Of a stretch of DNA of 64,000 nt, positions 19,631 through 50,412 are shown in pieces. Position numbers and translations under genes: made by a program. Source of the stretch: Candidatus Nitrospira nitrosa (GTDB lineage Bacteria; Nitrospirota; Nitrospiria; Nitrospirales; Nitrospiraceae); assembly GCF_001458735.1 (NCBI RefSeq), contig NZ_CZQA01000008.1, positions 248,001 to 312,000 of the forward strand. The letters run 5' to 3'. The notes below the pieces were generated by a model. The model made no database searches. It had not been told where the DNA came from and was given only the letters and a program-made list of their open reading frames with translations. The first letter of the stretch is position 1; each line of letters opens with the position of its first letter.

Positions 19631-20037
19631 GCTTGTCTCCTTTACATAGGACATCGGAAATCGAACGCCGAGGAGGACAGGTCATTACCGTGCGAAGCGA
19701 AATACCATGCCGCCGCCCGAATGGTTGTCATAGTTCTTCCAACCATACCGTCCACTCCCTCTCTGCCTTTTAATTCATCACCGCTCAGAACCAGCAATGC
19801 CCTAACATTCCTGGTTCCTCAGCAAGGAACGGGCCAGCCATCACGTTCAGAAATCACTCTAATTTGCGGGAATTGCCGAGTTGCTTTCCGAGAAGGATCC
19901 TGCAGCGGTGGATCTCTTTTGATTCAGTGAACCGAAAAGGATTCAAAGTGCCTAGGGTGGTACCGATGCTGCCGCGGAGGGTTCTATGAGCAGTCTTGAA
20001 TGATGGCTGTATCTAGAAGGAGGTGACTGTTCAGAAG
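19631..20037. other. Gene-free region beyond the duplicated gene tail
   Basis: About 400 bases with no gene. It contains the hairpin-like segment at 19908-19940 that resembles the one near 17780, and the ribosome-binding site of the diheme cytochrome gene at its left end. The duplicated tail of the 20937 gene begins at its right end. Confidence 0.35.
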
Positions 20038-20216
20038 CTATTCACACTTCTGCAGCAATGTTCCGAGGCATTTGAGCGTCCCCAGAGGATTGGTCAAGGA
20101 CTTGCGCAGAACAGACCCAGGCGGGGGGTTGATCACATTACGCCCGGTGGTCGATAAGAAATTCTCGATCCCCTTCGTGCCTTCCTTCGCTCCATCGACG
20201 AGAACCCTCATGATCC
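20038..20216 (-). pseudogene. Duplicated 3' end of the 20937 lipoprotein gene
   Basis: About 178 bases closely related (roughly 80% by eye) to 20937-21115, the last part of the large lipoprotein gene. The copy stays in frame and encodes GTKGIENFLSTTGRNVINPP and a C-terminus identical to the gene's, CLGTLLQKCE, with its own stop (TAG against TGA). Similarity ends at the stop codon. The toxin-antitoxin pair 20314-20832 lies between the two copies. No start codon context of its own, so not an independent gene. Confidence 0.85.
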
Positions 20217-20313
20217 GTGGCAACCACTGTATTGAGGGAAGCACAGGGGTAAGATCCGTTCAATCAAAACCTGGTTCAACCTCAACCGATTCCCTACTCT
20301 TTTGTAGCTCCCG

Positions 20314-20607
20314 TTACTCCCTCCCAACCCAATACATCGGGCGACGCTTCAGATTCATGACTGCAAGCACACGCACCCGATCTGATTTGATGGTATAGAG
20401 AAGCGCGTAGGGAAATCGGAGAAGGAGTCGGCGACGAATCGTCTCCGTGATCAGCGGAGCAGCTTCAGGGAAATTCGCAATGGCTTGAGTACAATGCTCG
20501 ACTTCATCAAGAAACGCCGCTCCGAGACAAGGACTTTCTGACTCGTAATACTGGGCGGCTTCGTTCAATTCACGGCGGGCCAATCGATGGTACGAGACGC
20601 GCTCCAT
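20314..20607 (-). CDS. ParE/RelE-family toxin
   Basis: 97 residues of the RelE/ParE fold: N-terminal ARRELNEAAQYYESE, central helix with FLDEVEHCTQAIANFPEAAP, and the C-terminal strand with RFPYALLYTIKSDRVRVLAVMNLKRRP. These toxins inhibit gyrase or cleave mRNA; which applies is unknown. Its ATG follows the antitoxin stop directly (TGAATG), the usual coupled order with the antitoxin first. Confidence 0.9.
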   Translation of the reverse strand: MERVSYHRLARRELNEAAQYYESESPCLGAAFLDEVEHCTQAIANFPEAAPLITETIRRRLLLRFPYALLYTIKSDRVRVLAVMNLKRRPMYWVGRE

Positions 20608-20832
20608 TCACTTCAGCTTGGCTCTCGCTTCACGAAACATGTCCTTCGCAGAAACGGCGGACTCTGGTTGAACATCCATCTCCGCTGATCTGCGCTGGGC
20701 CTCTTCAGCCCAGAGCCTAGCATTTTCCTCTTCGGACAGATCTTCCAAGCTCGCCAACAATTTTCCAGCCAAGCGGGCTCGGGACTTTGGATCAAGCTTC
20801 AGCGCCTCGGCTTCAAGTTCGGTGATACTCAT
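20608..20832 (-). CDS. Antitoxin of ParE/RelE module (addiction-module component family)
   Basis: 74 residues, beginning MSITELEAEALKLDP with the helical pattern SRARLAGKLLASLEDLSEEE typical of the short addiction-module component family paired with ParE-like toxins. The C-terminal half should wrap the toxin. It lies 104 bases downstream of the stop codon of the lipoprotein gene, within the segment bracketed by the duplicated gene tails. Confidence 0.88.
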   Translation of the reverse strand: MSITELEAEALKLDPKSRARLAGKLLASLEDLSEEENARLWAEEAQRRSAEMDVQPESAVSAKDMFREARAKLK

Positions 20833-20936
20833 GGACGCATTTTACTCCAAACCAGCTTCTTGAGCCAACGATATCATCTCGAAGTCTAGCTGACACATCA
20901 ATCCTTCAACTGCGCTCATACTTCTCACAACAGAAA

Positions 20937-22874
20937 TCACTCGCACTTCTGCAGCAACGTGCCGAGGCATTTGAGTGTCCCCATTGGGTTAAGCAGCGGC
21001 TTGCGTAGGACCGACCCAGGCGGGGGGTTGATCGCATTACGCCCGGCGGTCGACAAAAAGTTCTCGATCCCCTTCGTGCCTGTCCGTGCCCCATCGACGA
21101 GAGTCGCGATGACCCGCCCTAGCCCAAGGTCATGTTCGAACTCAACTCCCGCGACATGTACCTTGATCGGGTCCGGCTTGCCGCAATCCGGACCAGAAGG
21201 GAACGTCTCGTCCTTGTTGACCAATGCCGTGATCTCTTTCACTCGGTCTTCGGCGTCAACGTCATCACCCTCGCTCCACGAAGCCGACGTCAAAAACTCA
21301 GCCCGAAAACCATTTGCATCAGCGACAAACTGCGTCGGTGCATAGGTAACGGCCGCAAACGGTTTCGGCGCCGTGACGGTGACCGTCTTGATTCCACGAA
21401 GCACCTGATCCGCCTTCACCATCTTGGGAAGACCGATCAATGCAGGAATAAGGGTGGGCTTTCCCCCTCCCACGAATTGACTCAGTGTGACGCCAAGAGC
21501 AAGACCCTCATCATCCATGACCGTGATAGGGAACTTCGAACAGACAAGCTGATTCGCAATAACCAAAACCGGTACTCCTAGATAGGTGCGGAGTGCCAAG
21601 GACAGCGTACCAGCCAAGACAGGGGATGCGGTCCCTTCCAGTGTCGTGCGCTTCCCGACACCACCCCCAATTAATGGGTCAAAGTGGACATACATAATGG
21701 TGTTGGCCTCAATGTCCGCCGAAGCCGAATAGGCCAACCCATTTTCGCTCCATGCCGAGGTGACCTGCTTGAGGGTCACGGTTCCCCAGGCCGCATCACG
21801 ACTATCCAACTCGACCGAAAACCCACCGGCTCCGAGCAGATTGTCCCGCCATTGTTTCTCAAATAGCTTGCCGCGGGATCTGATTGATTGAAAGGAGACG
21901 GTACGCTCATCGCTGGATCGCTCATTGAACTGCGCCGTGAGTTTCTCAAGCAACGGTTTCCTGACGATGACGGCTGAGTCACCGGATGCAAAGGTCAATC
22001 CGATCGCGGCGGCGCGAATGGCATAGGTCAACCGTCCAATTTCAGTCTCCAACTGCTCCGTCGGTACCCGGGCAACTGGTCTGGGTATATAGGGGGTCTT
22101 GTCGCCGTACCGTGCAAAAATCCAGAACCCCGAGTCGGTCATCAAAAACTGAGAATAGCGGGCCACGATCGGCATCTCGAACTTCGGACTGGCATAGGCG
22201 ATCTTGATCTGAAAACCCTTCTCCTCGTCCTTCAGCACCTCACTTCCCGAAAGCCCCAACACAAGCTTGTCCAGCCTAGCTGTTGGTACCTTTACCACAA
22301 GGTCTTTTTCAATCTGGTCGATCATTCGGTTCCTAAGATAGTCGCGCACCGCCGCAATGTTGTGAAACCGCAGAGAATACCAGGAGAGATCGGGATGGAG
22401 CTCTCTCACCTTTACCCGAAATGCAAGTTGGTCTTCATGGGTGTCCGTATCCGGCTCGGGCGGCAGGAACAAGAGATCGCCTGTCATCGCTGCATCAAAT
22501 TGGAGATGATTCGTGGGACTGGCAACGGAGACCTGAAGCGCTAGTTCACTGCGGCCGGCCCTACTGACCAGTTGAATGTCTTCTATCCTGATAGATAGAT
22601 CTTCGAGACCCTCAGGTGGCTTGGCCGGAGTGATGATCAGCCCCTTGAGCAGCGACAGCAACTTGACCATGCCCCGATTCGAGATCCCGATCCCTAGGTC
22701 AGCCGCAGCATGTCCACCACCCTGCTGCTGAAGCTGATCTTGCAGCGCCAGGCTCTCATACACCGCCCGCTGATGGTCGACGATTAGTTGGCCTTCTCGG
22801 TCTGAACCACACCCAGACAGCACCATCGCCCACAGGGCTAGCAGCCACAGAGATCGCATGGAACTCTTGCTCAT
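20937..22874 (-). CDS. Large lipoprotein, unknown function
   Basis: About 645 residues from the start chosen because it directly opens a lipoprotein signal (LALWAMVLSGC); several other Met codons are possible. The body is rich in beta-strand-like segments with no catalytic motif recognised, and repeated blocks such as LIGGGVGKRTTLEGTASPVL. It resembles a large periplasmic or outer-membrane-associated protein. The C-terminal 59 residues are duplicated at 20038-20216, beyond a toxin-antitoxin module. Confidence 0.75.
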   Translation of the reverse strand: MSKSSMRSLWLLALWAMVLSGCGSDREGQLIVDHQRAVYESLALQDQLQQQGGGHAAADLGIGISNRGMVKLLSLLKGLIITPAKPPEGLEDLSIRIEDIQLVSRAGRSELALQVSVASPTNHLQFDAAMTGDLLFLPPEPDTDTHEDQLAFRVKVRELHPDLSWYSLRFHNIAAVRDYLRNRMIDQIEKDLVVKVPTARLDKLVLGLSGSEVLKDEEKGFQIKIAYASPKFEMPIVARYSQFLMTDSGFWIFARYGDKTPYIPRPVARVPTEQLETEIGRLTYAIRAAAIGLTFASGDSAVIVRKPLLEKLTAQFNERSSDERTVSFQSIRSRGKLFEKQWRDNLLGAGGFSVELDSRDAAWGTVTLKQVTSAWSENGLAYSASADIEANTIMYVHFDPLIGGGVGKRTTLEGTASPVLAGTLSLALRTYLGVPVLVIANQLVCSKFPITVMDDEGLALGVTLSQFVGGGKPTLIPALIGLPKMVKADQVLRGIKTVTVTAPKPFAAVTYAPTQFVADANGFRAEFLTSASWSEGDDVDAEDRVKEITALVNKDETFPSGPDCGKPDPIKVHVAGVEFEHDLGLGRVIATLVDGARTGTKGIENFLSTAGRNAINPPPGSVLRKPLLNPMGTLKCLGTLLQKCE

Positions 22875-22989: not shown

Positions 22990-23262
22990 CTAGACTTCGC
23001 CCCTAGCCTTGGGACCAGGATAATCGTTACCCAAATCCCAACCAGCCGCGACACGTTGTCTAGCGTTCTGTAACAGCGAACGGTAATGAGGCATAAATGG
23101 TTCTACAAGGGAATCTTCCAAGGCCGCAGAGACTGCACCTAGCACTAGGAATTCAGAGACATCCGCAAATTCAAGACGATCGCTTTGTTTAAACCGCATC
23201 AAAAACTCGAAGAGAACTAGCGCTTCATCATTGGTGAGTTCGATATGCATACCATTACCCAT
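22990..23262 (-). CDS. Hypothetical protein, 90 residues
   Basis: A soluble protein with an internal core MHIELTNDEALVLFEFLMRF, seen as a recurrent small family of unknown role in bacteria. It starts two bases after the stop of the duplicated cytochrome tail, and its ribosome-binding site (AGGAAAG) lies within that tail, which suggests that the original gene order was cytochrome followed directly by this gene. An inner Met four codons on is an alternative start. Confidence 0.65.
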   Translation of the reverse strand: MGNGMHIELTNDEALVLFEFLMRFKQSDRLEFADVSEFLVLGAVSAALEDSLVEPFMPHYRSLLQNARQRVAAGWDLGNDYPGPKARGEV

Positions 23263-23264
23263 GG

Positions 23265-23372
23265 CTACTTTCCTGTCGGCATATTCTCCGTTCGCTTCAC
23301 GACCTCGATCGGCTGGAAGACGGGATCTTGTGACCGTTGAGACGATTCGGCTTCGACACGTTGGAGTATCCG
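23265..23372 (-). pseudogene. Duplicated 3' end of the 23698 cytochrome gene
   Basis: About 107 bases related (close to 90% by eye) to the last codons of the pentaheme cytochrome gene. Read on the minus strand it gives LQRVEAESSQ...FQPIEVVKRTENMPTGK and a stop, against LQRVEAESSQ...FQPIEIVKRTENVPVGK in the gene. It is in frame, ends at the stop and lacks the rest of the gene. The orphan antitoxin gene 23399-23617 lies between the two copies. Confidence 0.88.
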
Positions 23373-23398: not shown

Positions 23399-23617
23399 TC
23401 ACAAGACCTTGTTTCGGATGTCTGCTTTGGCGGCCTCCCAATCGAGGAATTGAGATTGCCCCTCGGCAAGTCGTTGGCGGCGATCATCAAGGATATCGTT
23501 GTGCCACGCAGGGGACTCGATGGATTCTTGAAGATGTGTAGTGTCTTCCCTCAGAGACTCCATCGCAGCAAGCTTCTCATGGAGACTCGTACCTTTGAGT
23601 GTAAGATTATAAGGCAT
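23399..23617 (-). CDS. Orphan antitoxin, addiction-module component family
   Basis: 72 residues with the family pattern LHEKLAAMESLREDTTHLQE, ESPAWHNDILDDRRQRLAEG and a C-terminal FLDWEAAKADIRNKVL. Proteins of this family normally precede a ParE-like toxin; here no toxin follows, only the duplicated cytochrome tail. The ribosome-binding site GGGAGGTG is about eight bases upstream. Either the toxin was lost on insertion or the antitoxin acts against a toxin elsewhere. Confidence 0.85.
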   Translation of the reverse strand: MPYNLTLKGTSLHEKLAAMESLREDTTHLQESIESPAWHNDILDDRRQRLAEGQSQFLDWEAAKADIRNKVL

Positions 23618-23697
23618 GGGGTCAAAACACCTCCCACCGAACCAGATTCAAGCCCGTAAGATTTCGCAGCTTCCCTTTATCATTCACGCCTACCCAG

Positions 23698-24930
23698 CTA
23701 TTTGCCCACCGGAACATTCTCCGTTCGCTTCACGATCTCGATCGGCTGGAAGGCGGGATCTTGCGATCCTTGGGATGATTCGGCTTCGACACGTTGGAGG
23801 AATGTGGTCGGACCAGTCAGCGGTGCGTAATTGAGCCCAACTTCAACATCGAAGGTCTTGGTATCTTTGGGTGTGGGGAAGGTAAAGGTTTCCTCTCTCA
23901 TCTCTTCTGGTCTCAGCACCGTATCCTCAGCCACCTTGACTGCTTCAAAGTCGAAGATCGTCGGCTGTCCCTGCGCGTCCAGATACGTCCGACCATAGAC
24001 CCGCTTGTCACTGAACACCGTTTTGAGGTTCTTGCCCTTGACCTCCAGACTCAACACCACCGAAGCCCAAGCCGGATGGGTCGCCGGCAAGTTGTGTGGA
24101 ACGAGACTTTGTACCTTCACCGTCACCATCGTATTGGCGCCATCGACTTTTGTCTGCACCGCTACCTTCGCCGCCTCCTGACGAAGCTTGCCCAAGCGCC
24201 CTGGGAAACTATGGTTTGCGACGGTCCGTTTCTTTTCCCCATTGGCTGATTCGCCTACTTGTTGCGGCATGTGGCAGGTCTGACATTCTTTACCGGACTT
24301 CACGGCCCGGCTCTGATCCCAATTCCCCAGCAAGTCGTTGGCCTTCCCAAGATTCACCGCTGATGGCACCGACTGATGACAGTTCAAACAGAGATCAGAC
24401 TTCTGGAACAGACTCGATTCCATCGATTGATGGGCCAGATTCTGCACAAAGTCTTTGTAGGGTCCATAGAGTGTTTTTCCGCCGACTTCATACTTGGGCT
24501 CAGGAGGATGCTTCGCACGGTCCACGTGCTTGATCAAATGGCACTGACTGCAGGCCACGCCGTCCAATGACGGATCGCCACTCTTCGTTTGATCCACAAA
24601 CAACTGGGCCTGCTCAGAGAACTCACGAACATGCGGCGCATGGCATCGGAAACACAGCGCCTGATCCTTTCCGCCAGGCGACTTCACATAGGCATCCAGT
24701 GCGGCACGGAACGCGGGAGAATGAATGGACTTGGCCAAGGGCGACGTTTCCCATTCTTCGTACACCCGCTCGTGGCAACGTTTACATTTATTGGAATGAG
24801 GAAAGGTCTTCTCGATCGCCGCTTGACTGCTCGAATTCTGAGCCTGCGCAAAAGCCGAGTCGCCACTCAACAAGGTCAGAATACCGGCTGTGATGACAAT
24901 ACAGAGCTTCACGACCGCTTTCATGCTCAT
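23698..24930 (-). CDS. Pentaheme c-type cytochrome (cytochrome c554-like)
   Basis: About 410 residues with an N-terminal signal peptide (LLSGDSAFAQAQ) and five CXXCH motifs: CKRCH, CFRCH, CSQCH, CLNCH and CQTCH, all in the first 250 residues, resembling the cytochrome c554 family of periplasmic electron carriers. The last 170 residues are heme-free and beta-rich. It is a paralogue of the next gene, with matching heme spacing and the shared TLYGPY segment after the third heme. The start is uncertain: a GTG at 24972 overlaps the upstream gene, and I used the Met at 24930. Confidence 0.88.
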   Translation of the reverse strand: MSMKAVVKLCIVITAGILTLLSGDSAFAQAQNSSSQAAIEKTFPHSNKCKRCHERVYEEWETSPLAKSIHSPAFRAALDAYVKSPGGKDQALCFRCHAPHVREFSEQAQLFVDQTKSGDPSLDGVACSQCHLIKHVDRAKHPPEPKYEVGGKTLYGPYKDFVQNLAHQSMESSLFQKSDLCLNCHQSVPSAVNLGKANDLLGNWDQSRAVKSGKECQTCHMPQQVGESANGEKKRTVANHSFPGRLGKLRQEAAKVAVQTKVDGANTMVTVKVQSLVPHNLPATHPAWASVVLSLEVKGKNLKTVFSDKRVYGRTYLDAQGQPTIFDFEAVKVAEDTVLRPEEMREETFTFPTPKDTKTFDVEVGLNYAPLTGPTTFLQRVEAESSQGSQDPAFQPIEIVKRTENVPVGK

Positions 24931-24952
24931 GGGGCGGTGAGAAACTTGTCGA

Positions 24953-26293
24953 CTAGTGAAGTTGTTTAACACGATAGGTCAGAAAATGTCGTTGTGTGTA
25001 TTCATGGATGATCTTTCTCGCCTCATCACGATCCGCATCCGTCTGGAGCGAGCCAAGGTATTTCTCCTGTACCTCCGGTTCAGGAGCGGGAATCAGTGCA
25101 TAGGTGAGCACTGCTTCAATCGACGAGGCAACTGTCCCACTCGGAAGTGTGAAGGCAAAAGGCACTTTTCTTGTATTGCCACCCTTGATGAAGGGATCCG
25201 GAATGGGGCCACGGAGAAGCTTGTCGTAGGACAATCCAAACCGCTGCGTCTCCTCCGTCAAGGTCTGCCCCTTGGCATCCTTCGCCGTCACGGTCAGGAA
25301 GAACTGTTTCAGCACCGGATCGCCATCGGGAAAGATGTGCGGCAAACTACCGACCTTCACAAGACTTCTTCCTTCCACAGTCGTGCCGGTCTTTGTCACC
25401 TCCACATCAATTCGAGGCATCCATTCCGCCTGTACGTTCCGATTCTTGAGCATCGTTCCGGCCACAACGACGCCGCGAAACCAATGGCGACCAATGGATC
25501 GGGTCATGGCACCGCGTCGTGACGTTGAACTCCCGGTTGAAGGCTCCATATGGCAATCCTGACAGATCGTACCTTCCAAGATTTCTCCGGGCAGATTCAT
25601 TTGGGTGACATCTTTCACTTTGTCGAAGTGACAGGAGGCGCAAAAACTGGCTTCTCGAAATTGCGGCGATTGCACAGCCGGATGGACGAGATTCTCTTCT
25701 GGATTCGCATAGGGACCATAGAGCGTTCGTCCTGGCTGTAAGGTAAACGTCGGCGGCGAACTCGCACTCTTGTCCATTCCTGCCATCAAGTGACAGGCCG
25801 CACAGCCGATCCCTTCTACCCCCGACTTTCCGCTCAAGACTTGCCCGATGATCTTTTCGACATGTTCCGGAAACACCGTCACGGCAGGGGCATGGCACGA
25901 CAAGCATCGCCGCTGCTCATCTGCTGTTGGATTCGTTTCTTTCCAAAGACCGAGGACCGTTCGAAAAACTGGTGATGTCAACGAGGTCCCGTGCAAGAGC
26001 GCGGCATCCACACGACCAAAGGTCTTCAAATCAGGCGTCTGCTCCCGGACGCCCTTCCACTCTTCATAATGCCGTTCATGGCACTGCTTGCAGTCTTCTG
26101 AACGGATGAAGACCTTTTCAATGTCCGCCACCCAATCAACCGCGATCTGGTCATTTAGCTTTTGCGTGTCTGCTTGCCCCTGAGCCAGACTGCTCAGGGG
26201 ACTGACAAGTCCAACCAGCGACAGGAAACAGAGCGTCGCAATGCTCCATCTCCATCGTGCGCGACCACTCTGTGCGTTGGCCTTACCTCTCAC
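24953..26293 (-). CDS. Pentaheme c-type cytochrome, paralogue
   Basis: 446 residues with a signal peptide ending SSLAQGQ and five CXXCH motifs: CKQCH, CLSCH, CAACH, CASCH and CQDCH. The C-terminal part is heme-free like its paralogue. It starts with GTG. Together the two genes form a tandem pair translated nearly continuously. A role in periplasmic electron transfer, perhaps linked to nitrite oxidation by its neighbours, is plausible but not shown. Confidence 0.88.
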   Translation of the reverse strand: MRGKANAQSGRARWRWSIATLCFLSLVGLVSPLSSLAQGQADTQKLNDQIAVDWVADIEKVFIRSEDCKQCHERHYEEWKGVREQTPDLKTFGRVDAALLHGTSLTSPVFRTVLGLWKETNPTADEQRRCLSCHAPAVTVFPEHVEKIIGQVLSGKSGVEGIGCAACHLMAGMDKSASSPPTFTLQPGRTLYGPYANPEENLVHPAVQSPQFREASFCASCHFDKVKDVTQMNLPGEILEGTICQDCHMEPSTGSSTSRRGAMTRSIGRHWFRGVVVAGTMLKNRNVQAEWMPRIDVEVTKTGTTVEGRSLVKVGSLPHIFPDGDPVLKQFFLTVTAKDAKGQTLTEETQRFGLSYDKLLRGPIPDPFIKGGNTRKVPFAFTLPSGTVASSIEAVLTYALIPAPEPEVQEKYLGSLQTDADRDEARKIIHEYTQRHFLTYRVKQLH

Positions 26294-37701: not shown

Positions 37702-37969
37702 TGAAAGACTCTCAGTCACATGGAAAGAGGCTATTACCCTACTACCCGCCGAACCGTTCAGGTATAAAGCAACTTTCCGGTTTGAGATTTCGGTGACGTC
37801 CGCTGAACACCCTCGGCATCGATCTAGAGTCTGCTGTTCACACAAGACAAACCCGTCGAAGAGTTGACTTGATCGTGAGGCATCTCTTACGATCTGAATT
37901 ATCGAAGAAATTATACTGGCCGGGTTGGTCACCAATCAAGGACCAGACAGACAAGGAAACGCACGACCT

Positions 37970-39058
37970 ATGCCTGATCCAACGATGACTCCTCTTCTCG
38001 CACCCGGTTCTGTTGACATGCCATCAACCTCACCCATCGATTTCCTGGAATACTGGGGAACTGACTGTCGTGAGCTGAACACCTTCCGTGGGCATTCGCA
38101 TGGAGTGTGGGCGGTTGCCTTTTCCCCAGATGGAACCATGCTTGCGAGCGGGGGCGCCGAACGCCTCGTCCGTATGTGGGATATTGAAACCGGTCGGCTG
38201 CTCCGTTCCCTTCGCGGCCATACTCACGACATCCGCGCCATCGTCTTCACCCCAGATGGGCAAACCCTCGCGACGGCGAGCGAAGACCGCACCATCAGGC
38301 TCTGGAACGGTAAGACCGGCGAACCCGTGAAGCTCCTCTTTACTCGATACGACCATAGCGTGTGCAGTTTATCTCTCTCCCCGGATGGACTCATGCTCGC
38401 GCGTGGGAGCCACAACAAAGACATCAAAATTTGGGAAGTCACCACCGGCACCGAGCTCATGACCCTTCTGGGAAAAGACGAATACGATCACCATTGGTCG
38501 GTGTGTGTTGCGTTCTCACCCGACGGCATCCATCTCGCCAGCGGAACCGACATCGGGAAAATTAAAGTGTGGGAAGTACTCCCAAGCGGCGAGGAAAAGG
38601 TTCTCCACGATGGTCATTGGCGAAAAGACGAAGTGGATTCGACCGAGACCCGTGGCTATTTTGTTGAAGATGACGGCGGATTCCAGAAGCCGATGGACTA
38701 CTGGATCGGGGCCATGACCTTCACCCCGGATGCAAAACTCCTGATCACCGGTAGCCGAGACACCACCATCAAGCTCTTTGAGATGCCGACGGTGGTCGAG
38801 AAGAAAGCGTTGACCGGCCACAAGGGCTGGGTCCGTAGTCTCGCCGTCTCTCCGGACGGAAAAGTTTTGGTCAGCGCCAGCGACGACCAAACCATCAAGT
38901 TTTGGGATCTGTCCACCGGTCGAAACTTCCGAACCCTCAAAGGCCACAGTGGCCCAGTCCGCGGATTGGCCTTTTCTCCAGACGGCAAGCGCCTTGCCAG
39001 CGCTTCCTGGGATCGGACGGTGAAGTTGTGGGAAGGGGGAGAGAAAAAGGAAGAGTAG
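37970..39058 (+). CDS. WD40-repeat beta-propeller protein
   Basis: About 362 residues with seven WD40 repeats, each ending in forms like VRMWDIETG, IRLWNGKTG or IKFWDLSTG and containing AFSPDG. No signal peptide and no fused enzyme domain. The frame is open to a GTG at 37925, but the ATG at 37970 has AAGGA 12 bases upstream and avoids overlapping the divergent neighbour. The last 30 codons are duplicated at 39989-40090 on the far side of a HEPN-MNT toxin-antitoxin pair. Confidence 0.88.
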   Translation: MPDPTMTPLLAPGSVDMPSTSPIDFLEYWGTDCRELNTFRGHSHGVWAVAFSPDGTMLASGGAERLVRMWDIETGRLLRSLRGHTHDIRAIVFTPDGQTLATASEDRTIRLWNGKTGEPVKLLFTRYDHSVCSLSLSPDGLMLARGSHNKDIKIWEVTTGTELMTLLGKDEYDHHWSVCVAFSPDGIHLASGTDIGKIKVWEVLPSGEEKVLHDGHWRKDEVDSTETRGYFVEDDGGFQKPMDYWIGAMTFTPDAKLLITGSRDTTIKLFEMPTVVEKKALTGHKGWVRSLAVSPDGKVLVSASDDQTIKFWDLSTGRNFRTLKGHSGPVRGLAFSPDGKRLASASWDRTVKLWEGGEKKEE

Positions 39059-39110: not shown

Positions 39111-39521
39111 TCAGATGATACAAGAGGAAGGTAGGATTCGACGTATTGCCTGACGAATCGCTCTGGCAACCTCAACAGCCCGAAGTGCCTCTGCTTGTTC
39201 AACCGGCTCCCACACTCCAGGATAGCGCCCTTCTATCGAATAGGGATTCAGCTCTTCGAGCGAGTGCACGTTGAAGTCTTTCAGCAGTCCATCCGGCAAC
39301 AGCGCATAAAGTTCAGTCAGATCATGAATCTTCGGTGGGTCGATGTGCCGGGAAACCAGGAGCGCTTTGAGGTATTTCTCCGCGCATTGTTGTGCATGAA
39401 AACCAACGGTATCCCACGGGATCTCCCTCGCCGCGAGATTATTTTCGATATTGAGCAAGTCATGTTCGGCCTTGATAACCCAGGCCCGGACAAGATCCTC
39501 ATCCTTAAGCCGCACGGTCAT
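39111..39521 (-). CDS. HEPN-domain protein (toxin of HEPN-MNT pair)
   Basis: 136 residues, helical, with LVRAWVIKAEHDLLNIEN, FHAQQCAEKYLKALLVSR and HDLTELYALL, typical of HEPN proteins coded next to minimal nucleotidyltransferases. HEPN toxins are RNases whose activity depends on an R-x4-6-H motif; in this protein the candidate is RHIDPPKIH, with a spacing slightly outside the usual one, so activity is uncertain. It overlaps the MNT gene by 17 bases. Confidence 0.87.
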   Translation of the reverse strand: MTVRLKDEDLVRAWVIKAEHDLLNIENNLAAREIPWDTVGFHAQQCAEKYLKALLVSRHIDPPKIHDLTELYALLPDGLLKDFNVHSLEELNPYSIEGRYPGVWEPVEQAEALRAVEVARAIRQAIRRILPSSCII

Positions 39522-39849
39522 GCAGGATCTTTCCCTCTTGCCACGCGGTCCTTATCACAGTCCCTGGCGCATCGCGGTAAGCTTCAAATTCTTCAGGAGT
39601 CACGACAATGACATCTTTCGGAACGCCCATACCGGCCAGCAACCCATGGATCTCAACCGCTCGCCTTCGCTTAGAACCGTGTGGCTGCATTACGACAAGC
39701 AAATCGACATCGCTATGCGGACCAGCCGTTCCACGGGCATGTGATCCAAAGAGAATGATGCGCTCGGGATGGAATCGCTCGACAATACGTCGGACCATCT
39801 CGGCGATGGTAACTTGAACTGCGCTTATGTCCCTTGCTGGTTGCATCAT
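39505..39849 (-). CDS. MNT nucleotidyltransferase (antitoxin of HEPN-MNT pair)
   Basis: About 114 residues starting MMQPARDISAVQ. The nucleotidyltransferase core is GSHARGTAGPHSDVDLLVV, the GSx10DxD motif, near residue 42. MNT antitoxins inactivate the HEPN partner by adding nucleotides to a Tyr. The frame stays open further upstream across the antisense of the duplicated WD40 tail; that part cannot be original protein, so I placed the start at the double Met. Confidence 0.87.
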   Translation of the reverse strand: MMQPARDISAVQVTIAEMVRRIVERFHPERIILFGSHARGTAGPHSDVDLLVVMQPHGSKRRRAVEIHGLLAGMGVPKDVIVVTPEEFEAYRDAPGTVIRTAWQEGKILHDRAA

Positions 39850-39988
39850 CTTGTTTGCGAACTCCCCATCCTGAGAATACGCTTTTAGGCGGCAGAAATC
39901 ATCCGCGAGGAGACTTTTCGCCTCAGCCTCTGGCGAGTCCGCGGGCCAGAATTTCACGAACCGCGGTGAAAGGTCTATCGGGGGTGTC

Positions 39989-40090
39989 CGAGGTGGTCTG
40001 GCCTTTTCCCCAGACGGCAAACGCCTTGCCAGCGCTTCCTGGGATCGGACGGTGAAGTTGTGGGAAGGGGGAGCAAAGCAAAGCGAGTAA
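39989..40090 (+). pseudogene. Duplicated 3' end of the WD40 gene
   Basis: About 100 bases repeating the end of the WD40 gene (38959-39058), over 90% alike by eye across the central 85 bases. In the WD40 frame it reads [20 protein letters not shown], then [10 protein letters not shown] and TAA, against LWEGGEKKEE and TAG in the gene. Weaker similarity runs about 40 bases further upstream with small length changes. The HEPN-MNT pair lies between the two copies, in the opposite orientation. Confidence 0.9.
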
Positions 40091-44011: not shown

Positions 44012-44135
44012 TAACCCGGCGGTAGAGAGGGCTGAGAACCGCTTTATGGGGGTACGATCTCGGCGCCAACTTCAGCTCGTAGCCATTCTGCGACTCACGG
44101 CATCAGACCCAAAGCCGAAGTACAGGGCTTCAGTT
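44012..44135 (+). repeat. Cassette 3' block, copy 1
   Basis: Starts with ATCTAACCCGGCGG (attC-like left box) ten bases after the stop codon, then GGGCTGAGAACCGCTTTATG, a phrase shared by four other blocks (46611, 47117, 49030, 50325). An inner hairpin can form between ACTTCAGCT and AGCCGAAGT. No right-hand attC core follows here; the next gene is inverted. Confidence 0.6.
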
Positions 44136-44269
44136 GCCCTGATCTGATCGAATATTCCGTTATCCCGGCTTCTCCCCCATCCGCTGCCGCTGCCGGTCTC
44201 GATGTCTTCAGTGACATCCGGAAGTGTTTGGGGCGTTCATGGGTGGGGGTTCGAGCCTGAGTGTACTGG

Positions 44270-45034
44270 TTACGACATGCCTTGTTCGACCAACCCATTC
44301 TCGATCGTGACGCCCATTCGTTCTATCAGCCGAGTGAGTAATGTGAAATGGGCGCGCGAGTCAGTCGCAACGGCCAGCTGTCCAGCCGTCGCCAGTTGTA
44401 TGGTGTACACCTGTGAGGCGGAGGTTTTCAGGAGGGCCAGGCCGTAGTCGAAGAGATCCGCTTCTCTGCCGATGAGCCGTCGCCGGCTGAGTTGACGAAT
44501 ACCGGCCACCGTAAAGGGAGTCGTCTCGAACGACACATCCTTCAGACGAACCATCAAAGGCTGCTCGGCATGGCCATCGTTGTGACGCCCAGTGATGTCT
44601 GTGCCGTCGAACAGACCGCGTTGGAATCGGCGATTCTCCACCAGCGCGCGATGAAAGAGCCCACGCCACGTTGAATCGGTGAGATCACGATCCACAGCGA
44701 TGCAGGTGTCCGGCGTGAGCGGTCCGCTGACGTTGTACCCCTGCACCAGTCGCTGGCTGGCCAGGAGGTCGGGGAAGGCATCGCCCATCCGTTCGGGAAA
44801 GGCCGTGGTCCCGCAGAACGGACTGACTTGGATGGCCATATAGTCCCGGAAATGCACCTGCGGATACCGCTCCAGCAGCCACTGCAAGGTGCGCTCGTGG
44901 CACAGATGGAACGGATAAAATAGGACGCCGGATTGTGTCATGCCAGTGATGCAGCATAGCTGCTCTGCAACAGTATCCGCAAGCTGTCGTCCCAAACGGA
45001 AGCGGTGATAGTGCGCCACAGCGATTCTAACCAT
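44270..45034 (-). CDS. Hypothetical protein, inverted within the array
   Basis: About 254 residues, soluble, rich in His and Arg at the N-terminus (VRIAVAHYHRFRLGRQLADT) with CITGMTQSGVLFYPFHLCHE. Family not recognised and no motif found. It is the only gene of the island on the minus strand. No ribosome-binding site is seen at the chosen ATG. Its upstream region faces the ParDE promoter region. Confidence 0.55.
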   Translation of the reverse strand: MVRIAVAHYHRFRLGRQLADTVAEQLCCITGMTQSGVLFYPFHLCHERTLQWLLERYPQVHFRDYMAIQVSPFCGTTAFPERMGDAFPDLLASQRLVQGYNVSGPLTPDTCIAVDRDLTDSTWRGLFHRALVENRRFQRGLFDGTDITGRHNDGHAEQPLMVRLKDVSFETTPFTVAGIRQLSRRRLIGREADLFDYGLALLKTSASQVYTIQLATAGQLAVATDSRAHFTLLTRLIERMGVTIENGLVEQGMS

Positions 45035-45188
45035 CAATAGAAGGCAGCGAGATGGGGGTCAGAAAACTATTTCGTTGCTCGTGAAGTATGAGGGGAAAGA
45101 CCATGTTGACAGAATGCGGTGGGATTTCTCATGTACTCAAAAAAGTGCTAAACTGCATCAATAGTATGAAGAGGTCGGAGGTCTCACC

Positions 45189-45443
45189 ATGGGAACGACA
45201 CGAAAGACGATCACGGTGACAGAACAACAGGATCAATGGATCAAGGCCCAGATCGAATGTGGAAAGTTTACGAACGACAGCGAATACATCCGAGATCTGA
45301 TTCGACGCGATCAGGATAGCGCCACATTTCAGACGTTGAAAGATGCTATTCAGGAAGGGTTGGACAGCGGAATCAGTGATCGTACTGTGCCACAGATTAT
45401 GGAGGACGTCGAAGCGCGGCTGAGATCGAATGGCCGGTTATAA
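45189..45443 (+). CDS. parD: ParD-family antitoxin
   Basis: 84 residues, a ribbon-helix-helix protein with TRKTITVTEQQDQWIKAQIE, SEYIRDLIRRD and a toxin-binding C-terminal helix. GGAGGT lies before the ATG. ParD both neutralises ParE and represses the shared promoter. It overlaps the toxin gene by 14 bases. TA pairs like this are common as stabilising units in cassette arrays. Confidence 0.93.
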   Translation: MGTTRKTITVTEQQDQWIKAQIECGKFTNDSEYIRDLIRRDQDSATFQTLKDAIQEGLDSGISDRTVPQIMEDVEARLRSNGRL

Positions 45444-45720
45444 CCTCTCGTCAAAGGCCGCTGCCGATCTCGAGAGTATCTACGAATATACGATCCTTCA
45501 GTTTGGGCTGGAGCAGGCGCGGGGTTATCTCTTTGGCTTGCACGAACGGTTTCAGGCGCTAGCAGCGCATCCAACGCAAGGGCGCAGGGCTGATGAACTT
45601 GCCCCAGGATTGCGGCGGGTTGAGTATCAGTCCCACATCGTCTTTTATATTTCCATGGACAACGGCATTCGAATCGTGCGTGTACTCCACCAACGCATGG
45701 ACGTAACACGGCATCTGTAG
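45430..45720 (+). CDS. parE: ParE-family toxin
   Basis: 96 residues of the RelE/ParE fold: SSKAAADLESIYEYTILQFG, AHPTQGRRADELAPGLRRVE and a C-terminal VFYISMDNGIRIVRVLHQRM. ParE toxins poison DNA gyrase. Complete, with no sign of inactivation. It ends 26 bases before an attC-like block. Confidence 0.93.
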   Translation: MAGYNLSSKAAADLESIYEYTILQFGLEQARGYLFGLHERFQALAAHPTQGRRADELAPGLRRVEYQSHIVFYISMDNGIRIVRVLHQRMDVTRHL

Positions 45721-45746
45721 CAACAGCATAGGAGGCTCTCCGAGAA

Positions 45747-45868
45747 ATCCTGTAGTCACAACTCATTGAAACTACAACGGGCAGGCGTATTCTTCACACA
45801 CCGTAGTACGGTCTTATATGGACGGAAACGATCGGATCCAGCTCCTACGAATCCGTCTAAACATTGTT
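45747..45868 (+). repeat. attC-like intergenic block 2
   Basis: CCTGTAGTCACAACTCATTG is close to the corresponding parts of blocks 3 and 4, followed by GGGCAGGCGTATT and, at the right end, GAATCCGTCTAAACATTGTT. The next start codon follows 14 bases after the last GTT. Confidence 0.6.
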
Positions 45869-45881
45869 CGCTGCAAGACCT

Positions 45882-46517
45882 ATGGAATACGAGAAGTGGC
45901 GCGATGACATCTTTGGACAGCCGGTCGGTTCCGATCCGGTCATGCTCGATCTACTTCCGGAAACATATTCTGTCTCGCCCGACGAGCACTTCGCTCATAT
46001 CGATCGCGCACTCTCGGACCCGCAAATCCATGAATTGTTCAACTCAGACCAGATTGGAACTGGGCTGCAATTGATCTATTCGAACTCGTGTAGTGACATT
46101 TGCTTCTGCTACATCAACGCGGGCGACGAGGCGCGTCGAGTTTCCGGGATCGCGAAGCTCAATGATTTATACGCCAAGTATTTCGATCGCTACTGTTTGT
46201 CACCGGTTGGCAGCATTGGCAATGATCACCTCAATGGTGGGATTGGCTATCTCTGTTACATGCTCTGGGATCTATTCGTCCTCTATCCCGGAAATGCCTC
46301 GCCTGCGATGGTGTCCGCGGCACTCGGGGTAATGTCTAACGCCTTACAGATGAAAAACGATAATTGCATCGTGTCTGCGATACATGGTCTGGGACACTGG
46401 GCAACGGATGTACCTCGCGCGCCGCAGGTGCTGCGACAATGGTTGCGGAAGCCGACGACGACAAATCCCACCGTAATCTCTTATGCGAAAGAGGCTACCA
46501 CAGGCTGCATCCTGTAG
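45882..46517 (+). CDS. Hypothetical protein, 211 residues
   Basis: Soluble protein starting MEYEKWRDDIFGQPVG. A central run of conserved-looking residues, CFCYINAGDEARRVSGIAKL and LGHWATDVPRAP, does not match a family I know. The ATG at 45882 is the first Met after the cassette boundary. The gene occupies a cassette of its own between two repeat blocks. Confidence 0.7.
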   Translation: MEYEKWRDDIFGQPVGSDPVMLDLLPETYSVSPDEHFAHIDRALSDPQIHELFNSDQIGTGLQLIYSNSCSDICFCYINAGDEARRVSGIAKLNDLYAKYFDRYCLSPVGSIGNDHLNGGIGYLCYMLWDLFVLYPGNASPAMVSAALGVMSNALQMKNDNCIVSAIHGLGHWATDVPRAPQVLRQWLRKPTTTNPTVISYAKEATTGCIL

Positions 46518-46524
46518 GGCGGCG

Positions 46525-46705
46525 AACTAGGCGTTGCACACGAGCGGACGGCAACGTCGGTGTGGGGTCAACATCACATGTGCCCGCCTGGTGAACGCGG
46601 TCGTCAATGCACAGGGCTGAGGACCGCTTTATGGCGTTCCGATCTCGTCGCCGAACTTCCGCTTGTGGTCGAATGCCTACGGTCGCAAAGTGGAGCGTCA
46701 GACGT
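46525..46705 (+). repeat. Cassette 3' block, copy 2
   Basis: Directly after the stop: GGCGTTGCACACGAGCGGAC with the complement GCAACG nearby, attC-like. Then CAGGGCTGAGGACCGCTTTA at about 46611 and TCGCCGAACTTCCGCTTGTG, the phrases shared with the other copies. The right-hand part with the GTT core is missing. Confidence 0.55.
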
Positions 46706-46792
46706 TCTGTGTAATAACCGGTCGGTCATTGCGCACCAAACGGCGGTGGAAGTAGAAGAGAACACCTTACGCCCGCATGAAGGAGGCGTCCC

Positions 46793-46996
46793 ATGGACAA
46801 TGATCTCCCCTCTTCCCTCTACGCCCTGGGTGCGACGTTCTTATATTTCCTTCCAACCTTTCTCGCCCTCGCACGAGGCCACCCCAACTCCTTCCTGCTT
46901 GCGATCGTGAATCTCTCGCTCGGATGGACCGTGATCGGCTGGGTGGGTGCGTTGTACTGGTCGCTCACGAAGCAACAACGGGGAGGGGAATCTTGA
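46793..46996 (+). CDS. Superinfection immunity protein (T4 Imm-like family)
   Basis: 67 residues with two membrane helices, FLYFLPTFLALARGHPN and LAIVNLSLGWTVIGWVGALY, the pattern of the Imm_superinfect family (LPT.IA..RGH, then LNL.LGWT.IGW). The T4 Imm protein in the inner membrane blocks DNA entry of related phages; bacterial chromosomal homologues have uncertain roles. GGAGG occurs upstream of the ATG. Confidence 0.85.
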   Translation: MDNDLPSSLYALGATFLYFLPTFLALARGHPNSFLLAIVNLSLGWTVIGWVGALYWSLTKQQRGGES

Positions 46997-47067
46997 CTGA
47001 GCGCAAGGTCGAAATGGCAGCAGCCTACAAGCGAAAGACGGTGAAGGATTTTCTGATGGCGAAGTAG
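46993..47067 (+). CDS. Possible 24-residue protein overlapping the immunity gene
   Basis: A TTG overlaps the preceding stop (TTGA), and the GGGAGGGG stretch upstream could serve as a ribosome-binding site. The product would be a basic amphipathic peptide ending TVKDFLMAK. Only the coupling geometry supports it, so it remains a weak candidate. Confidence 0.25.
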   Translation: MTERKVEMAAAYKRKTVKDFLMAK

Positions 47068-47116
47068 AAAAGGGATCGAGCGTTGCGATCTTAACAAGCT
47101 GTCTCCCCCCACACTT

Positions 47117-47405
47117 CCGACTGATGACCGCTTTCAGGCTCTGCAACCTCGTCGCCGAACTTCTGCTTCTGGCCGGTTCTTCAACCATCGGACTCCAACC
47201 CAAAGCAGAAGTCCACAACTGACTGCTACTTGAAGAGGGGGGCCTTACTCCGATCCGCATAAGAACTTGCGGTAAGCGGTCCCACGGTTACAGCTCATTG
47301 AAACAACACCGGGCATGGCGTATTCTTTCCGAACTGTTGTGGCGTGTTATTCGGACAGAAAATGGTAGACCCGGTTCTGATGCTGATCGGCCTAAACCTA
47401 GGTTG
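47117..47405 (+). repeat. Cassette 3' block, copy 3, with attC-like end
   Basis: The best-preserved long copy: CTGATGACCGCTTTC, then ACTTCTGCTT with its exact complement AAGCAGAAGT 35 bases on, CCGATCCGCATAAGAAC, CTCATTGAAACAACACCGGG, CATGGCGTATTCTTTCCGAA, TTCGGACAGAAAATGG and finally GATCGGCCTAAACCTAGGTT. About 280 bases closely parallel 49030-49313. Confidence 0.75.
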
Positions 47406-47437
47406 GCAATCAGAACTTGAGCGATTGAGGCACATGG

Positions 47438-48940
47438 ATGAAAGACAGTGCTGAGTTCTTCTTGCGGGACTACCCTTCGACGCTGTTTCCATTGAGAACG
47501 AATCAGTTTCTCGTAGAGAAATATGCAGTCGAGCTGAAGGCTTTCATAAAAGAAAAGATTATCGACGCAGGAGGATCGTTTCAAAACCAGCAACGCGTGT
47601 TTGCGACCAAACGAGGATGGTTTCTGCGCCGCACGGTCAAGTTGGATCCTGTAGCGGAGTTCTTTCTATATGATCTTGTCTACCGGAACCGGTCATTATT
47701 CAGAGCTTCAAGCAATAGTAAGAGAGCGGTTTTCGGATTTCTCATTGAGAGCGGCCAACCTGTCTCAACGCTAAAAGCATACGTAAATTTTAAAGAACGA
47801 GTAGCGTTAAATAGGGCGACCTACAAGCACTATGCGTATTTTGATGTGGCTTCGTACTTCAATCACATCTATCACCACGATCTTGTGAGATGGTTCGAGG
47901 ACGTTGGGGCGACAGAGCCAGACTTAAGCCTCTTTGGCAAATTCCTCAGAGAGATATCTTCTGGAAGGTCGGTCGACTGTCTTCCCCAGGGGCTCTATCC
48001 AGCAAAGATGGTGGGCGCCTCATTCCTGTCTTTCCTAGAGGCATCCAACAGACTGCGCTCTGCGCAAACCCTGCGGCTGATGGACGACACGTGGATTTTC
48101 GACAACGACCCACGAAATTTGGTTTCTGACTTCACGCTCGTTCAGGCGCTACTAAGTGACAGAGGCCTATCCGTTAACGACAAGAAGTCGGTGGTACTCG
48201 AGGGATATGACGCTGCGGCAGAAATGCCAGCTGATTTAGATCAGATGAAGATCGACCTGCTGAGAAAAAGGCGAGAGGAACTGAAGGAGTCGGAAGGCTA
48301 CGGCGATGAGGAAGAGTATGATGATGACGACGAGGATGAGGACCCCGACACCTTGGCGGAGCTCACGGAAGAAGAACAAGAGTACCTCCTCTCGCTTCTG
48401 AAACGGGACAACGTTCAGGAGGAGGACGCGGAGTTGGTTCTAACTCTCATGCGGGAGAACTCCGCAGACTTGATGAGCTTTCTGCCATCGCTCATGGCTG
48501 GATTTCCAGCTTTATCAAAGAAAATTTATCAGTTTTGTGGTGACGCTGAGGACAAGACCGCAATTACAGATATGATCCTCGAATATCTTGAAAGTTCGGC
48601 CCAAGTGACGGAGTTTCAGTTGTTTTGGTTTGGCATGACGGCAGAAGATCACCTCCTCAATACACCTAAAGCGGCAGAACTTCTCCGAGCTCTTTATGAA
48701 AACGATAGGGCAACAGCTATAACAAAGGCCAAAATACTAGAGATTGCTGACAAACGTTTTGGGTTGCCAGATCTAAGGGACGAGCATCTTCGCACGGGCC
48801 AATCGGACTGGCTGGCTTGGTCTGCTGCCATCGGAGCACGAGTTCATCCAAAAGGTCAGAGGAACCAGCTACTCAAGTACTTTCGCAAGTCGTCCCCGAT
48901 GAATCTCCTGATTGGAGAATTTGTGGAGAAATGCTTTTAG
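47438..48940 (+). CDS. Stand-alone reverse transcriptase, defence-type (DRT/UG-like)
   Basis: 500 residues. The reverse-transcriptase core has motif A YAYFDVASYFNHIYHHDL (Asp136), motif B-like LPQGLYPAKMVGASFLSF (183-200), the catalytic pair in RLMDDTWIFDND (Asp216, Asp217, with Met in place of the usual Tyr/Phe-x) and a motif D-like SVNDKKS at 245-251. An acidic linker (about 288-303) leads to a helical C-terminal region of some 190 residues. There is no intron maturase domain and no retron ncRNA evident. This architecture fits the unknown-group reverse transcriptases used in phage defence, such as the AbiA/AbiK/DRT lineages; the class cannot be fixed by eye. GAGG precedes the ATG. Confidence 0.85.
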   Translation: MKDSAEFFLRDYPSTLFPLRTNQFLVEKYAVELKAFIKEKIIDAGGSFQNQQRVFATKRGWFLRRTVKLDPVAEFFLYDLVYRNRSLFRASSNSKRAVFGFLIESGQPVSTLKAYVNFKERVALNRATYKHYAYFDVASYFNHIYHHDLVRWFEDVGATEPDLSLFGKFLREISSGRSVDCLPQGLYPAKMVGASFLSFLEASNRLRSAQTLRLMDDTWIFDNDPRNLVSDFTLVQALLSDRGLSVNDKKSVVLEGYDAAAEMPADLDQMKIDLLRKRREELKESEGYGDEEEYDDDDEDEDPDTLAELTEEEQEYLLSLLKRDNVQEEDAELVLTLMRENSADLMSFLPSLMAGFPALSKKIYQFCGDAEDKTAITDMILEYLESSAQVTEFQLFWFGMTAEDHLLNTPKAAELLRALYENDRATAITKAKILEIADKRFGLPDLRDEHLRTGQSDWLAWSAAIGARVHPKGQRNQLLKYFRKSSPMNLLIGEFVEKCF

Positions 48941-49029
48941 ACTAAGGAAAGCCCAACCATGCGCTGCACAGCGGATCGGCTCCAGCGCTAGCGCGTTTCC
49001 GGCAACCGGTGAGCAACACGGTATCGTTA

Positions 49030-49313
49030 CAGGGCTGAGGACCGTTTTAGGGCGAGGTGATCTCGGCACCGAACCTCCGCTTCTGGCCGTTTCTACGACC
49101 GTCGACACCCGACCCAAAGCAGACGTACACGACTGACCGCTACCAGATGGGGGCTTACACCGATCCGCATAAAAACCCGTGATACATAGTCCCACTGGCC
49201 CAACTTATTGAAACGGCACCAGCCATGGCGTATTGTTTGCGAACAGTTGTAGCGTGTTACACCGTTAGCAATGAGCAGATTAGGTTTCTCCATAGATCCG
49301 CCTAAATTTGTTC
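49030..49313 (+). repeat. Cassette 3' block, copy 4, with attC-like end
   Basis: Parallel to copy 3 over its whole length: CAGGGCTGAGGACCGTTTTA, CCGAACCTCCGCTTCTGGCC, GACCCAAAGCAGACGT, CCGATCCGCATAAAAACCCG, CAACTTATTGAAACGGCACC, GCCATGGCGTATTGTTTGCG, and the end GATCCGCCTAAATTTGTT. The next ATG follows only eight bases after the GTT. Confidence 0.75.
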
Positions 49314-49320
49314 GGATAAC

Positions 49321-49744
49321 ATGGGTATGCCAACCTGGGACAATGCTAAGCAGTTGTTGGCTGAGTACGATGGAATTGCCACTAAACTCTTCGCGGGCGG
49401 TCTTTCACTTTCTCAACTGCCTGCGGTCATGCCGCGCTCAGCGAACTGTCAGTACTGGCTGAGGTCCGTTAACGGCACAACGCAGCATCTCGAGGTCTAC
49501 CCCTTGGTTAGACGCAACTACAGCGGCGCTCGAAATTACCCTCGCCCTTGTGTTCTGGAATCCGATGGCCCTTCCTCAGAATCTGACGGCTGTCGAGTGT
49601 GAGAAACGCGTGAAGGTACTGGAATCGTTAGCAGAAGCCTGTCGGACAGGCGCTCCCGTCGCCCCATGCATTCTGGCACCCGAGGACAACGGGTCGACGG
49701 AAGAACAACCTGAGAGACATGATGTGTGCGTGGTCGTATGGTGA
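49321..49744 (+). pseudogene. Hypothetical cassette gene with a frameshift
   Basis: A frame from MGMPTWDNAKQLLAEYDGIA to about residue 60 (HLEVYP) continues convincingly in the +1 frame as LDATTAALEITLALVFWNPM and on to PERHDVCVVVW and a stop at 49744. The shift is at or near the CCCC run at 49500-49503. The joined product would be about 140 residues of no known family. A sequencing error or programmed shift is possible, but decay is simplest. Confidence 0.6.
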
Positions 49745-49788
49745 GCCTCGGGGCCGTTAGCCTTGAAAAGGCGGAGGAGGTGAGCAGC

Positions 49789-50277
49789 ATGACCGAAGAC
49801 AACCCTGGTTATGGGGCAAGGTATGAGAAGAATTTGCAGCCGTTCCTTATCGAGATTTCGTCTGAAAAACTCCAAATGTCGAGAAATGTGTCATTTGCCA
49901 GTGCGGGTGTGGCATTGGCTGTGCTTTTGGCATCTTCGCAGATTAAACAGGATTCGGCTTTGATCGCCATCTCCTTAGCATCGGTCGCGACCTCAATCCC
50001 CTGGTTTCTGCTCAATGCAGTGGTTTCTGAAAATCACATCTGGGGTGGCCCCAAATGCTATCCTAACTACTCCGCCTGGGTACTGAAGCCAATCAGTAGT
50101 GCTATGATTCTCGGCCCTTTTTTCTTGCTCTTTCTCGGCCTATGTTGCTTTGTGTTATTTCTTAGCAAAATTGCGGGCGTCTTGTTCCTCGCTAGCAGTA
50201 TATTTGCATTTCAATACAACTTGAGGGTTCAAGATGAACTCGCAGAGTATTTAAGAAGTACTCAGGGAAAAACCTAA
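49789..50277 (+). CDS. Small membrane protein, four segments, unknown
   Basis: 162 residues starting MTEDNPGYGARYEKN, with a short cytoplasmic N-terminus and hydrophobic helices near 35-52, 55-75, 97-118 and 120-140, then a charged tail. The very strong ribosome-binding site GGAGGAGGTG fixes the start. Family not recognised. It follows the frameshifted gene within the same cassette unit or the next, as no attC-like core lies between them. Confidence 0.75.
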   Translation: MTEDNPGYGARYEKNLQPFLIEISSEKLQMSRNVSFASAGVALAVLLASSQIKQDSALIAISLASVATSIPWFLLNAVVSENHIWGGPKCYPNYSAWVLKPISSAMILGPFFLLFLGLCCFVLFLSKIAGVLFLASSIFAFQYNLRVQDELAEYLRSTQGKT

Positions 50278-50324
50278 TAAATCGGTCCAACTTTTCGGGC
50301 CTCTGCTCTTCACTCGGACGTCCA

Positions 50325-50412
50325 CGGTTGAGGTCCGCTTTATGACGGTGCTCTCTCGGCAGCGTACTTCAGCACTTGGCCGATGGCAGTCCTCGACCCT
50401 AAGCGGACGGTT
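50325..50412 (+). repeat. Cassette 3' block, copy 5
   Basis: CACGGTTGAGGTCCGCTTTA, CAGCACTTGGCCGATGGCAG and CCTAAGCGGACGG repeat the first part of the other blocks. About 80 bases later CAGACGTTAAAC, a proper GTTRRRY-type core, precedes the RidA-like gene by 15 bases. Confidence 0.55.

Follow-up and report, generated by a model that had tools for sequence, protein, structure and literature searches.

Toxin-antitoxin (TA) modules in Nitrospira genomes can lie between two copies of the 3' end of the gene that they follow. These brackets probably arise by recombination anchored in the gene tail together with a microhomology join, and the resulting cassettes would then spread by homologous recombination. 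We observed three brackets in the window (the whole 64-kb stretch analysed, from the genome designated G000; other G-numbers denote comparison genomes), each behind a different host gene. The first comprises a predicted lipoprotein gene and a ParE-type module, TA2:

20937-22874, minus strand: host gene 1, a predicted lipoprotein of 645 aa without a Pfam family, encoded by 16 of 79 genus genomes
20937-21116, minus strand: newcomer tail, attached to host gene 1, with its last ~90 nt, TGA stop and post-stop (intergenic) DNA resembling the TA-bearing alleles of G009, G076 and G036
20608-20832, minus strand: antitoxin of module TA2, PF09720 (Pfam E 9e-8)
20314-20607, minus strand: toxin of module TA2, ParE family PF05016 (Pfam E 6e-8)
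20217-20313, minus strand: right flank of TA2, which shares homology with unbracketed carriers as far as '..TCAnTnCAG'; the junction with the displaced tail follows
20038-20216, minus strand: displaced native tail of host gene 1, with a TAG stop and post-stop DNA resembling that of TA-free relatives

A first-pass annotation of the window had described a ParE pair enclosed by a recurrence of the lipoprotein gene's tail, and alignment bore this out: the direct repeat occupies 20032-20217 and 20931-21116 (186 nt, 80% identical without gaps), with a best local block of 162 nt at 85% (E=8e-46). It was also right that the copy is in frame and that the stop codons differ (TAG in the displaced tail, TGA in the attached one). 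Its statement that the similarity ends at the stop holds for this locus but not for the c554 locus of G062 or the G6PD locus of G063, where the duplication extends beyond the stop codon. The two further bracketed TA loci that it placed in the window are both real (repeats of 86% and 97%, cargo with Pfam matches). The toxin and antitoxin genes of TA2 adjoin each other and match PF05016 and PF09720 above the Pfam cut-offs, and by these family profiles the genes at 20314-20832 qualify as a predicted type II TA module.

Among the 16 carriers of the lipoprotein gene, TA2 lies 3' of it in G000, G006, G009, G076, G036 and G060, no TA pair follows it in nine more genomes, and a second tail is present only in G000 and its sister G006. 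The DNA after the stop of the displaced tail resembles the post-gene DNA of TA-free relatives (CTTCTGAA..GTCACCTC in G035; CATCATTCAAGACT in G075). The attached tail of G006 is of the TAG type, as are both displaced tails. The lipoprotein locus is a recombination mosaic. The distal parts of the two G006 tails are more alike than the proximal parts, which is the opposite of what the simplest model predicts, so that later gene conversion must be invoked. At the lipoprotein locus of G036 (L067), TA2 carries a 44-nt deletion spanning the antitoxin end and the toxin start.

The second bracket lies behind a cytochrome gene and involves another module, TA1:

23698-24972, minus strand: host gene 2, a multihaem cytochrome c554-like protein, present in 79 of 79 genus genomes searched
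23698-23799, minus strand: attached tail of host gene 2, one copy of the direct repeat
23399-23617, minus strand: antitoxin of module TA1, PF09720; the RelE-like toxin is deleted here and intact in G009 and G035
23264-23366, minus strand: displaced tail of host gene 2, the other copy of the direct repeat

The c554 repeat (23264-23366 and 23697-23799) is 86% identical, and its cargo in the window is an orphan PF09720 antitoxin, the toxin having been lost and the bracket kept. A 90-aa ORF without a Pfam match (22990-23262) begins 2 bases past the stop of the displaced tail. Downstream regions of c554 were readable in 70 cases from 79 genomes, and 19 of them hold a TA module or what is left of one. 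The c554 tail recurs at five of these 19 loci (G000, G009 and G035 with TA1; G062 and G021 with TA2), compared with none of the 51 TA-free loci (Fisher p about 0.001). The earlier proposal that a tail arrived with the module implies that both tails should not occur without TA genes, and no such locus is among the 51. Direct repeats are common in genomes, and the brackets might seem to need no more than chance repetition, or a gene end duplicated in tandem in the ordinary way and a TA pair inserted afterwards. However, the c554 loci, the native DNA downstream of displaced tails and the codon-position pattern given below already contradict this explanation, repeat E-values reach 1e-46, and we find it scarcely credible.

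In G009, the displaced c554 tail differs from the TA-free G036 allele by 1 mismatch in the 60-nt tail end, and the DNA after its stop by 1 mismatch in 99 nt; the attached distal tail differs from the same allele by 7 mismatches in 60, and its post-stop DNA is different. This comparison is decisive for the anatomy of the c554 bracket. In G062, it is TA2, the module of the lipoprotein locus, that sits behind c554 together with a copy of the c554 tail. The two tails there show 13 differences, all at third positions, and beyond the displaced tail come native post-stop DNA and a decayed antitoxin of TA1, implying that successive modules have occupied one gene end.

The third bracket encloses a HEPN/MNT pair:

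37925-39058, plus strand: host gene 3, a WD40-repeat protein
38967-39058, plus strand: attached tail of host gene 3, whose last 17 nt and post-stop DNA are foreign relative to TA-free alleles
39111-39521, minus strand: HEPN toxin-type protein, PF05168 (Pfam)
39505-39864, minus strand: nucleotidyltransferase (MNT) partner, PF01909 (Pfam)
39999-40090, plus strand: native tail of host gene 3 in its displaced position, leading into the native junction with a convergent SIMPL-type gene

The WD40 repeat (38967-39041 and 39999-40073) is 97% identical, and G000, G006 and G042 have HEPN/MNT after the WD40 gene. Relatives without TA genes show a gap of ~25 nt between the WD40 stop and the convergent SIMPL gene, and the displaced tail in G000 keeps this native junction (compared with TA-free G031 and G036). 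The bracket measures 130 nt in G042 against 75 nt in G000 and may therefore represent a separate event. Further along the window, positions 44026-50382 contain families of diverged direct repeats (D1, D4, D5, D9 and D10).

Across 27 brackets, the differences between attached and displaced tails are distributed 70/49/239 over the three codon positions. The third-position share is thus 0.67, compared with 0.73-0.81 for ordinary alleles of four host genes and with ~0.47 expected for identical copies under neutral decay, the last being our own estimate from simple rates. Duplication followed by decay is rejected at p=6e-14 unless gene conversion interferes, and this value overstates the strength of the evidence because the 27 brackets include kin of shared ancestry and are not all independent. 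The same pattern speaks against a simple tandem duplication predating the TA genes, the outcome that the first-pass annotation had set against its own proposal. The share below the allelic baseline implies some decay after insertion. By this measure the tails are apparently two functional alleles rather than a duplicated tail that decayed. Since the far copy and its downstream DNA match TA-free relatives, the native tail is the displaced one and the attached tail the newcomer, in agreement with the earlier suggestion that one tail came in with the module, swapping the host's 3' end and displacing the old one. Where a close TA-free relative exists, alignment shows the attached distal tail to be foreign. 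An allele without TA genes can also have arisen by precise excision, and empty sites alone do not polarise gain versus loss.

These data also bear on strict insertion with long target duplication, in which a transposition-like event would copy the recipient's own gene end. Such an event gives the same geometry and a similar duplication length, requires no transposase and is associated with selfish, post-segregational-killing cargo; moreover, very young brackets do look like plain copies (98% in G191, 97% at the cation-efflux gene of G001). However, the codon positions put most tail differences before displacement, a signal that gene conversion between tails could blur, and attached distal tails are foreign where checked. 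We regard strict target duplication as quite unlikely.

An unbiased scan, directed at local direct repeats that end on the stop codon of a gene, covered 450 contiguous kb of G000 together with 400 kb from each of G063, G039, G300 and G001 (2.05 Mb, five genomes), with paralogues, CRISPR and intergenic repeats removed by inspection. The three window cases are the sole credible gene-tail brackets in the 450 kb of G000. The full 2.05 Mb yielded seven, of which six hold Pfam-supported TA pairs and one a HEPN-like pair, so that the generalisation first drawn from the window, namely that loci bracketed in this way are TA modules, extends to 7/7 when the HEPN-like pair is counted. Those outside G000 are a bioB host with a zeta toxin (PF06414) and a SnoaL host with ParE in G039, a cation-efflux host with NTP_transf_2/Polbeta and NTase_sub_bind/HepT-like genes in G001, and a G6PD host with the HEPN-like pair, which has no Pfam match, in G063. 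If TA genes are assumed to make up 5% of candidate cargo, which is our own assumption, the chance of at least six TA cargoes in seven is 1e-7. The 400 kb of G300 contained paralogues or internal repeats only. Scan matches at 393 kb, 269 kb and 243 kb were set aside as paralogues or domain repeats, and the region at 137-139 kb of G063 (G063:C1:137554-139705) as a CRISPR-like array of ~73-nt units. The repeats at a VapBC locus near 152.5 kb of G063 are a three-copy intergenic element without a consistent frame and were not counted.

Across Nitrospirota, we observed at least 12 host-gene/TA combinations involving five unrelated TA types: lipoprotein-TA2, c554-TA1, c554-TA2, WD40-HEPN/MNT, SnoaL-TA2, hsdR-ParE, bioB-zeta, bioB-Phd/YafQ, cation efflux-MNT/HepT, response regulator-ParE (G191), 264-aa lipoprotein-ParE (G001), HTH gene-ParE-like (L228) and G6PD-HEPN-like. 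Duplication lengths range from about 57 to 240 nt. Flanking direct repeats accompany 10 of 30 ParE loci of the genus, including three behind hsdR (EcoEI_R_C) and one, in G051, whose repeat is uninspected. In G003, G015 and G016 (L071, L072 and L076), copies of the hsdR tail bracket a TA pair within a type I restriction-modification (RM) locus. Three of 29 PF09720 loci in the phylum are clear further gene-tail brackets (L228, L229 and L232). We did not count L222, a 96% repeat around a TA pair with an unclear host frame, or L214, L217, L223 and L240, where the repeats include no host gene tail. The bioB brackets of G067 and G041 hold a Phd/YafQ-type pair, with both Pfam matches slightly below the cut-off, and the displaced bioB tail and downstream DNA of G039 show 6 mismatches in 100 nt to TA-free G038. 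The host gene in G191 has no close orthologue among relatives and hence no empty site for comparison. The sole non-TA exception, a weak one, is the cation-efflux locus of G030 (L341), with a 56-nt tail fragment past a 310-aa esterase and no TA genes.

The cation-efflux gene provides a view of how brackets spread. One cargo/tail junction is common to eight species at this gene, and the DNA past the displaced tail differs among them; in two cases it is the same as in a relative without TA genes (G012 with G017, G001 with G021). The shared junction with differing downstream DNA strongly suggests two-armed homologous transfer of a tail-TA-tail cassette, the alternative being an ancestral insertion followed by precise losses through tail recombination. 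Two displaced cation-efflux tails stand in a row in G052 (L334), which suggests serial insertion behind one gene.

The founding event is most legible at c554/TA1, the one right junction with a known donor flank, other donor flanks being too diverged to define. Unbracketed TA1 carriers have a common right flank (TAGTCGGGTGCTCCAGCCAGGAACAG..); bracketed alleles track it to GCTCCA and re-enter c554 at CTCCAACGTG, with 5 nt of microhomology (CTCCA) and the module flank cut. This indicates that bracketed TA1 alleles derive from an unbracketed donor form. No decayed tail remnants were found behind unbracketed TA1 carriers. In another bracket, in G001, the join cuts into the 3' end of the toxin, as a variable incoming end would predict. 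The foreign distal tail joins the native gene in register, which constitutes one homologous end. TA2 stands behind the lipoprotein gene, c554 and the SnoaL gene, with the tail of its own host each time, and none of the brackets examined has a recombinase or integrase ORF between its tails. The right junctions of TA1 and TA2 in c554 coincide (about -102, CCTCCA) in G000, G009, G035, G062 and G021, which a random join does not predict; this may reflect coincidence, a break hotspot or shared history.

A Campbell-type event, in which a single homologous crossover within the tail integrates a circle that carries the TA pair and part of the gene tail, would yield the same gene-tail-TA-tail order and a foreign distal attached tail, and the lipoprotein tails do differ in the proximal half, as it predicts. 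However, it predicts differences in both tail halves, and at c554 in G009, cation efflux in G001 and WD40 in G000 the proximal parts match fully or almost fully, only the distal and post-stop parts differing. No circle or replicon genes were seen, and we consider this origin unlikely. A dedicated, integrase-like system that regenerates gene ends and acts on TA cassettes would account for the regenerated 3' end, the displaced native end and the joining of two different modules to c554 at one position. It is highly improbable, given that the brackets examined hold no recombinase between the tails, that TA2 tails differ by gene and duplication lengths vary, and that the known right junction is one of microhomology. 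The 'defined insertion route' of the first-pass annotation is not supported as worded, for like reasons: with no integrase ORF, no fixed attachment sequence (TA2 occurs with lipoprotein, c554 or SnoaL tails), variable lengths and a 5-nt microhomology join, general recombination explains the brackets.

In the tail-anchored recombination that we favour, a TA module already behind a gene in one lineage would enter another through recombination in that gene's 3' end, with the donor tail completing the recipient gene and the module coming after it. The far end of the module would join by short microhomology inside the recipient gene, upstream of the crossover, as shown at CTCCA and presumed elsewhere; a join in this position would retain the recipient's original tail and downstream DNA behind the module. 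The founding step may be a template switch during copying, or homology-facilitated illegitimate recombination with a sister copy. The tail-TA-tail unit would then be a portable cassette, and because its two tails can serve as homology arms, it could spread by ordinary homologous recombination with the gene always intact. Recombination between the tails should excise the cargo cleanly. TA cargo may be over-represented because losing an addiction module poisons the cell, and retention would then follow from the punishment of loss. More tentatively, and with no great confidence, we propose that TA modules spread without a transposase in this manner: two arms made of the host's 3' end would insert the module behind the gene across species, the module's tail would complete the gene, addiction would block loss by tail recombination, and TA families of different kinds would share conserved docking genes.

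The first-pass annotation knew of no described element with this behaviour, which overlooks long target duplication by RM systems, homology-facilitated illegitimate recombination and prophage e14 in icd. Prophage e14 has an integrase and a fixed attachment site, and its insert regenerates the 3' end of icd, leaving the gene active and the native end displaced. The brackets differ from e14 in being TA cassettes of ~0.7 kb with no integrase and many target genes. The location of e14 in E. coli icd is given by Hill et al. 1989 (as cited in PMC11784200). Insertion with long target duplication is known for RM systems (Nobusato et al. 2000; described in section 7 of PMC3874152 and in PMC3031569). 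The brackets resemble it in having selfish killing cargo, no transposase and long, variable flanking duplications (order of 100 bp); they differ in that the cargo consists of TA pairs and what is duplicated is the upstream gene's 3' end, in two copies that appear to be diverged functional alleles. The long end duplications are absent in empty-site relatives, as target duplication entails, but the copies do not come from one target and no RM cargo occurs in the brackets examined; hsdR, one of the host genes, itself belongs to an RM system. Among open-licence papers, we found no report of such insertion for TA modules.

Homology-facilitated illegitimate recombination integrates one end by homology and the other through an illegitimate joining event (PMC3240628; see also PMC5361080, citing Prudhomme 2002 and de Vries & Wackernagel 2002). 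Brackets likewise have one homologous end, and at the one right junction with a known donor flank (CTCCA at c554/TA1) the other end is joined at microhomology. Here, however, the native sequence is kept and duplicated, gene 3' ends are recurrent sites and the cargo is TA. In T6SS effector-immunity and Rhs C-terminal displacement, the 3' part of a gene is replaced by that of an incoming module, and the old part is pushed downstream (Kirchberger 2017, PMC5361080). Serial displacement makes arrays there, and the two displaced tails of G052 are comparable; unlike that system, in which the swapped tail is the toxin, the host here is an unrelated housekeeping gene and its protein is essentially unchanged.

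Taken together, the brackets are a variant of a known insertion geometry, set apart by their TA cargo and allelic tails; their signature is clear, and the retention hypothesis can be tested. They address the old question of what chromosomal TA modules are for and how they travel with no mobile element, since the moves can be read at both ends and the sequence signature can be searched for in any genome. Core genes receive foreign 3' ends in this way, among them biotin synthase and the cytochrome gene that every one of the 79 Nitrospira genomes searched contains, and the brackets show how selfish TA pairs can spread without harming adjoining genes. Because a cassette between direct repeats should vanish fast unless its loss is punished, bracket retention would provide a measure of addiction in nature.
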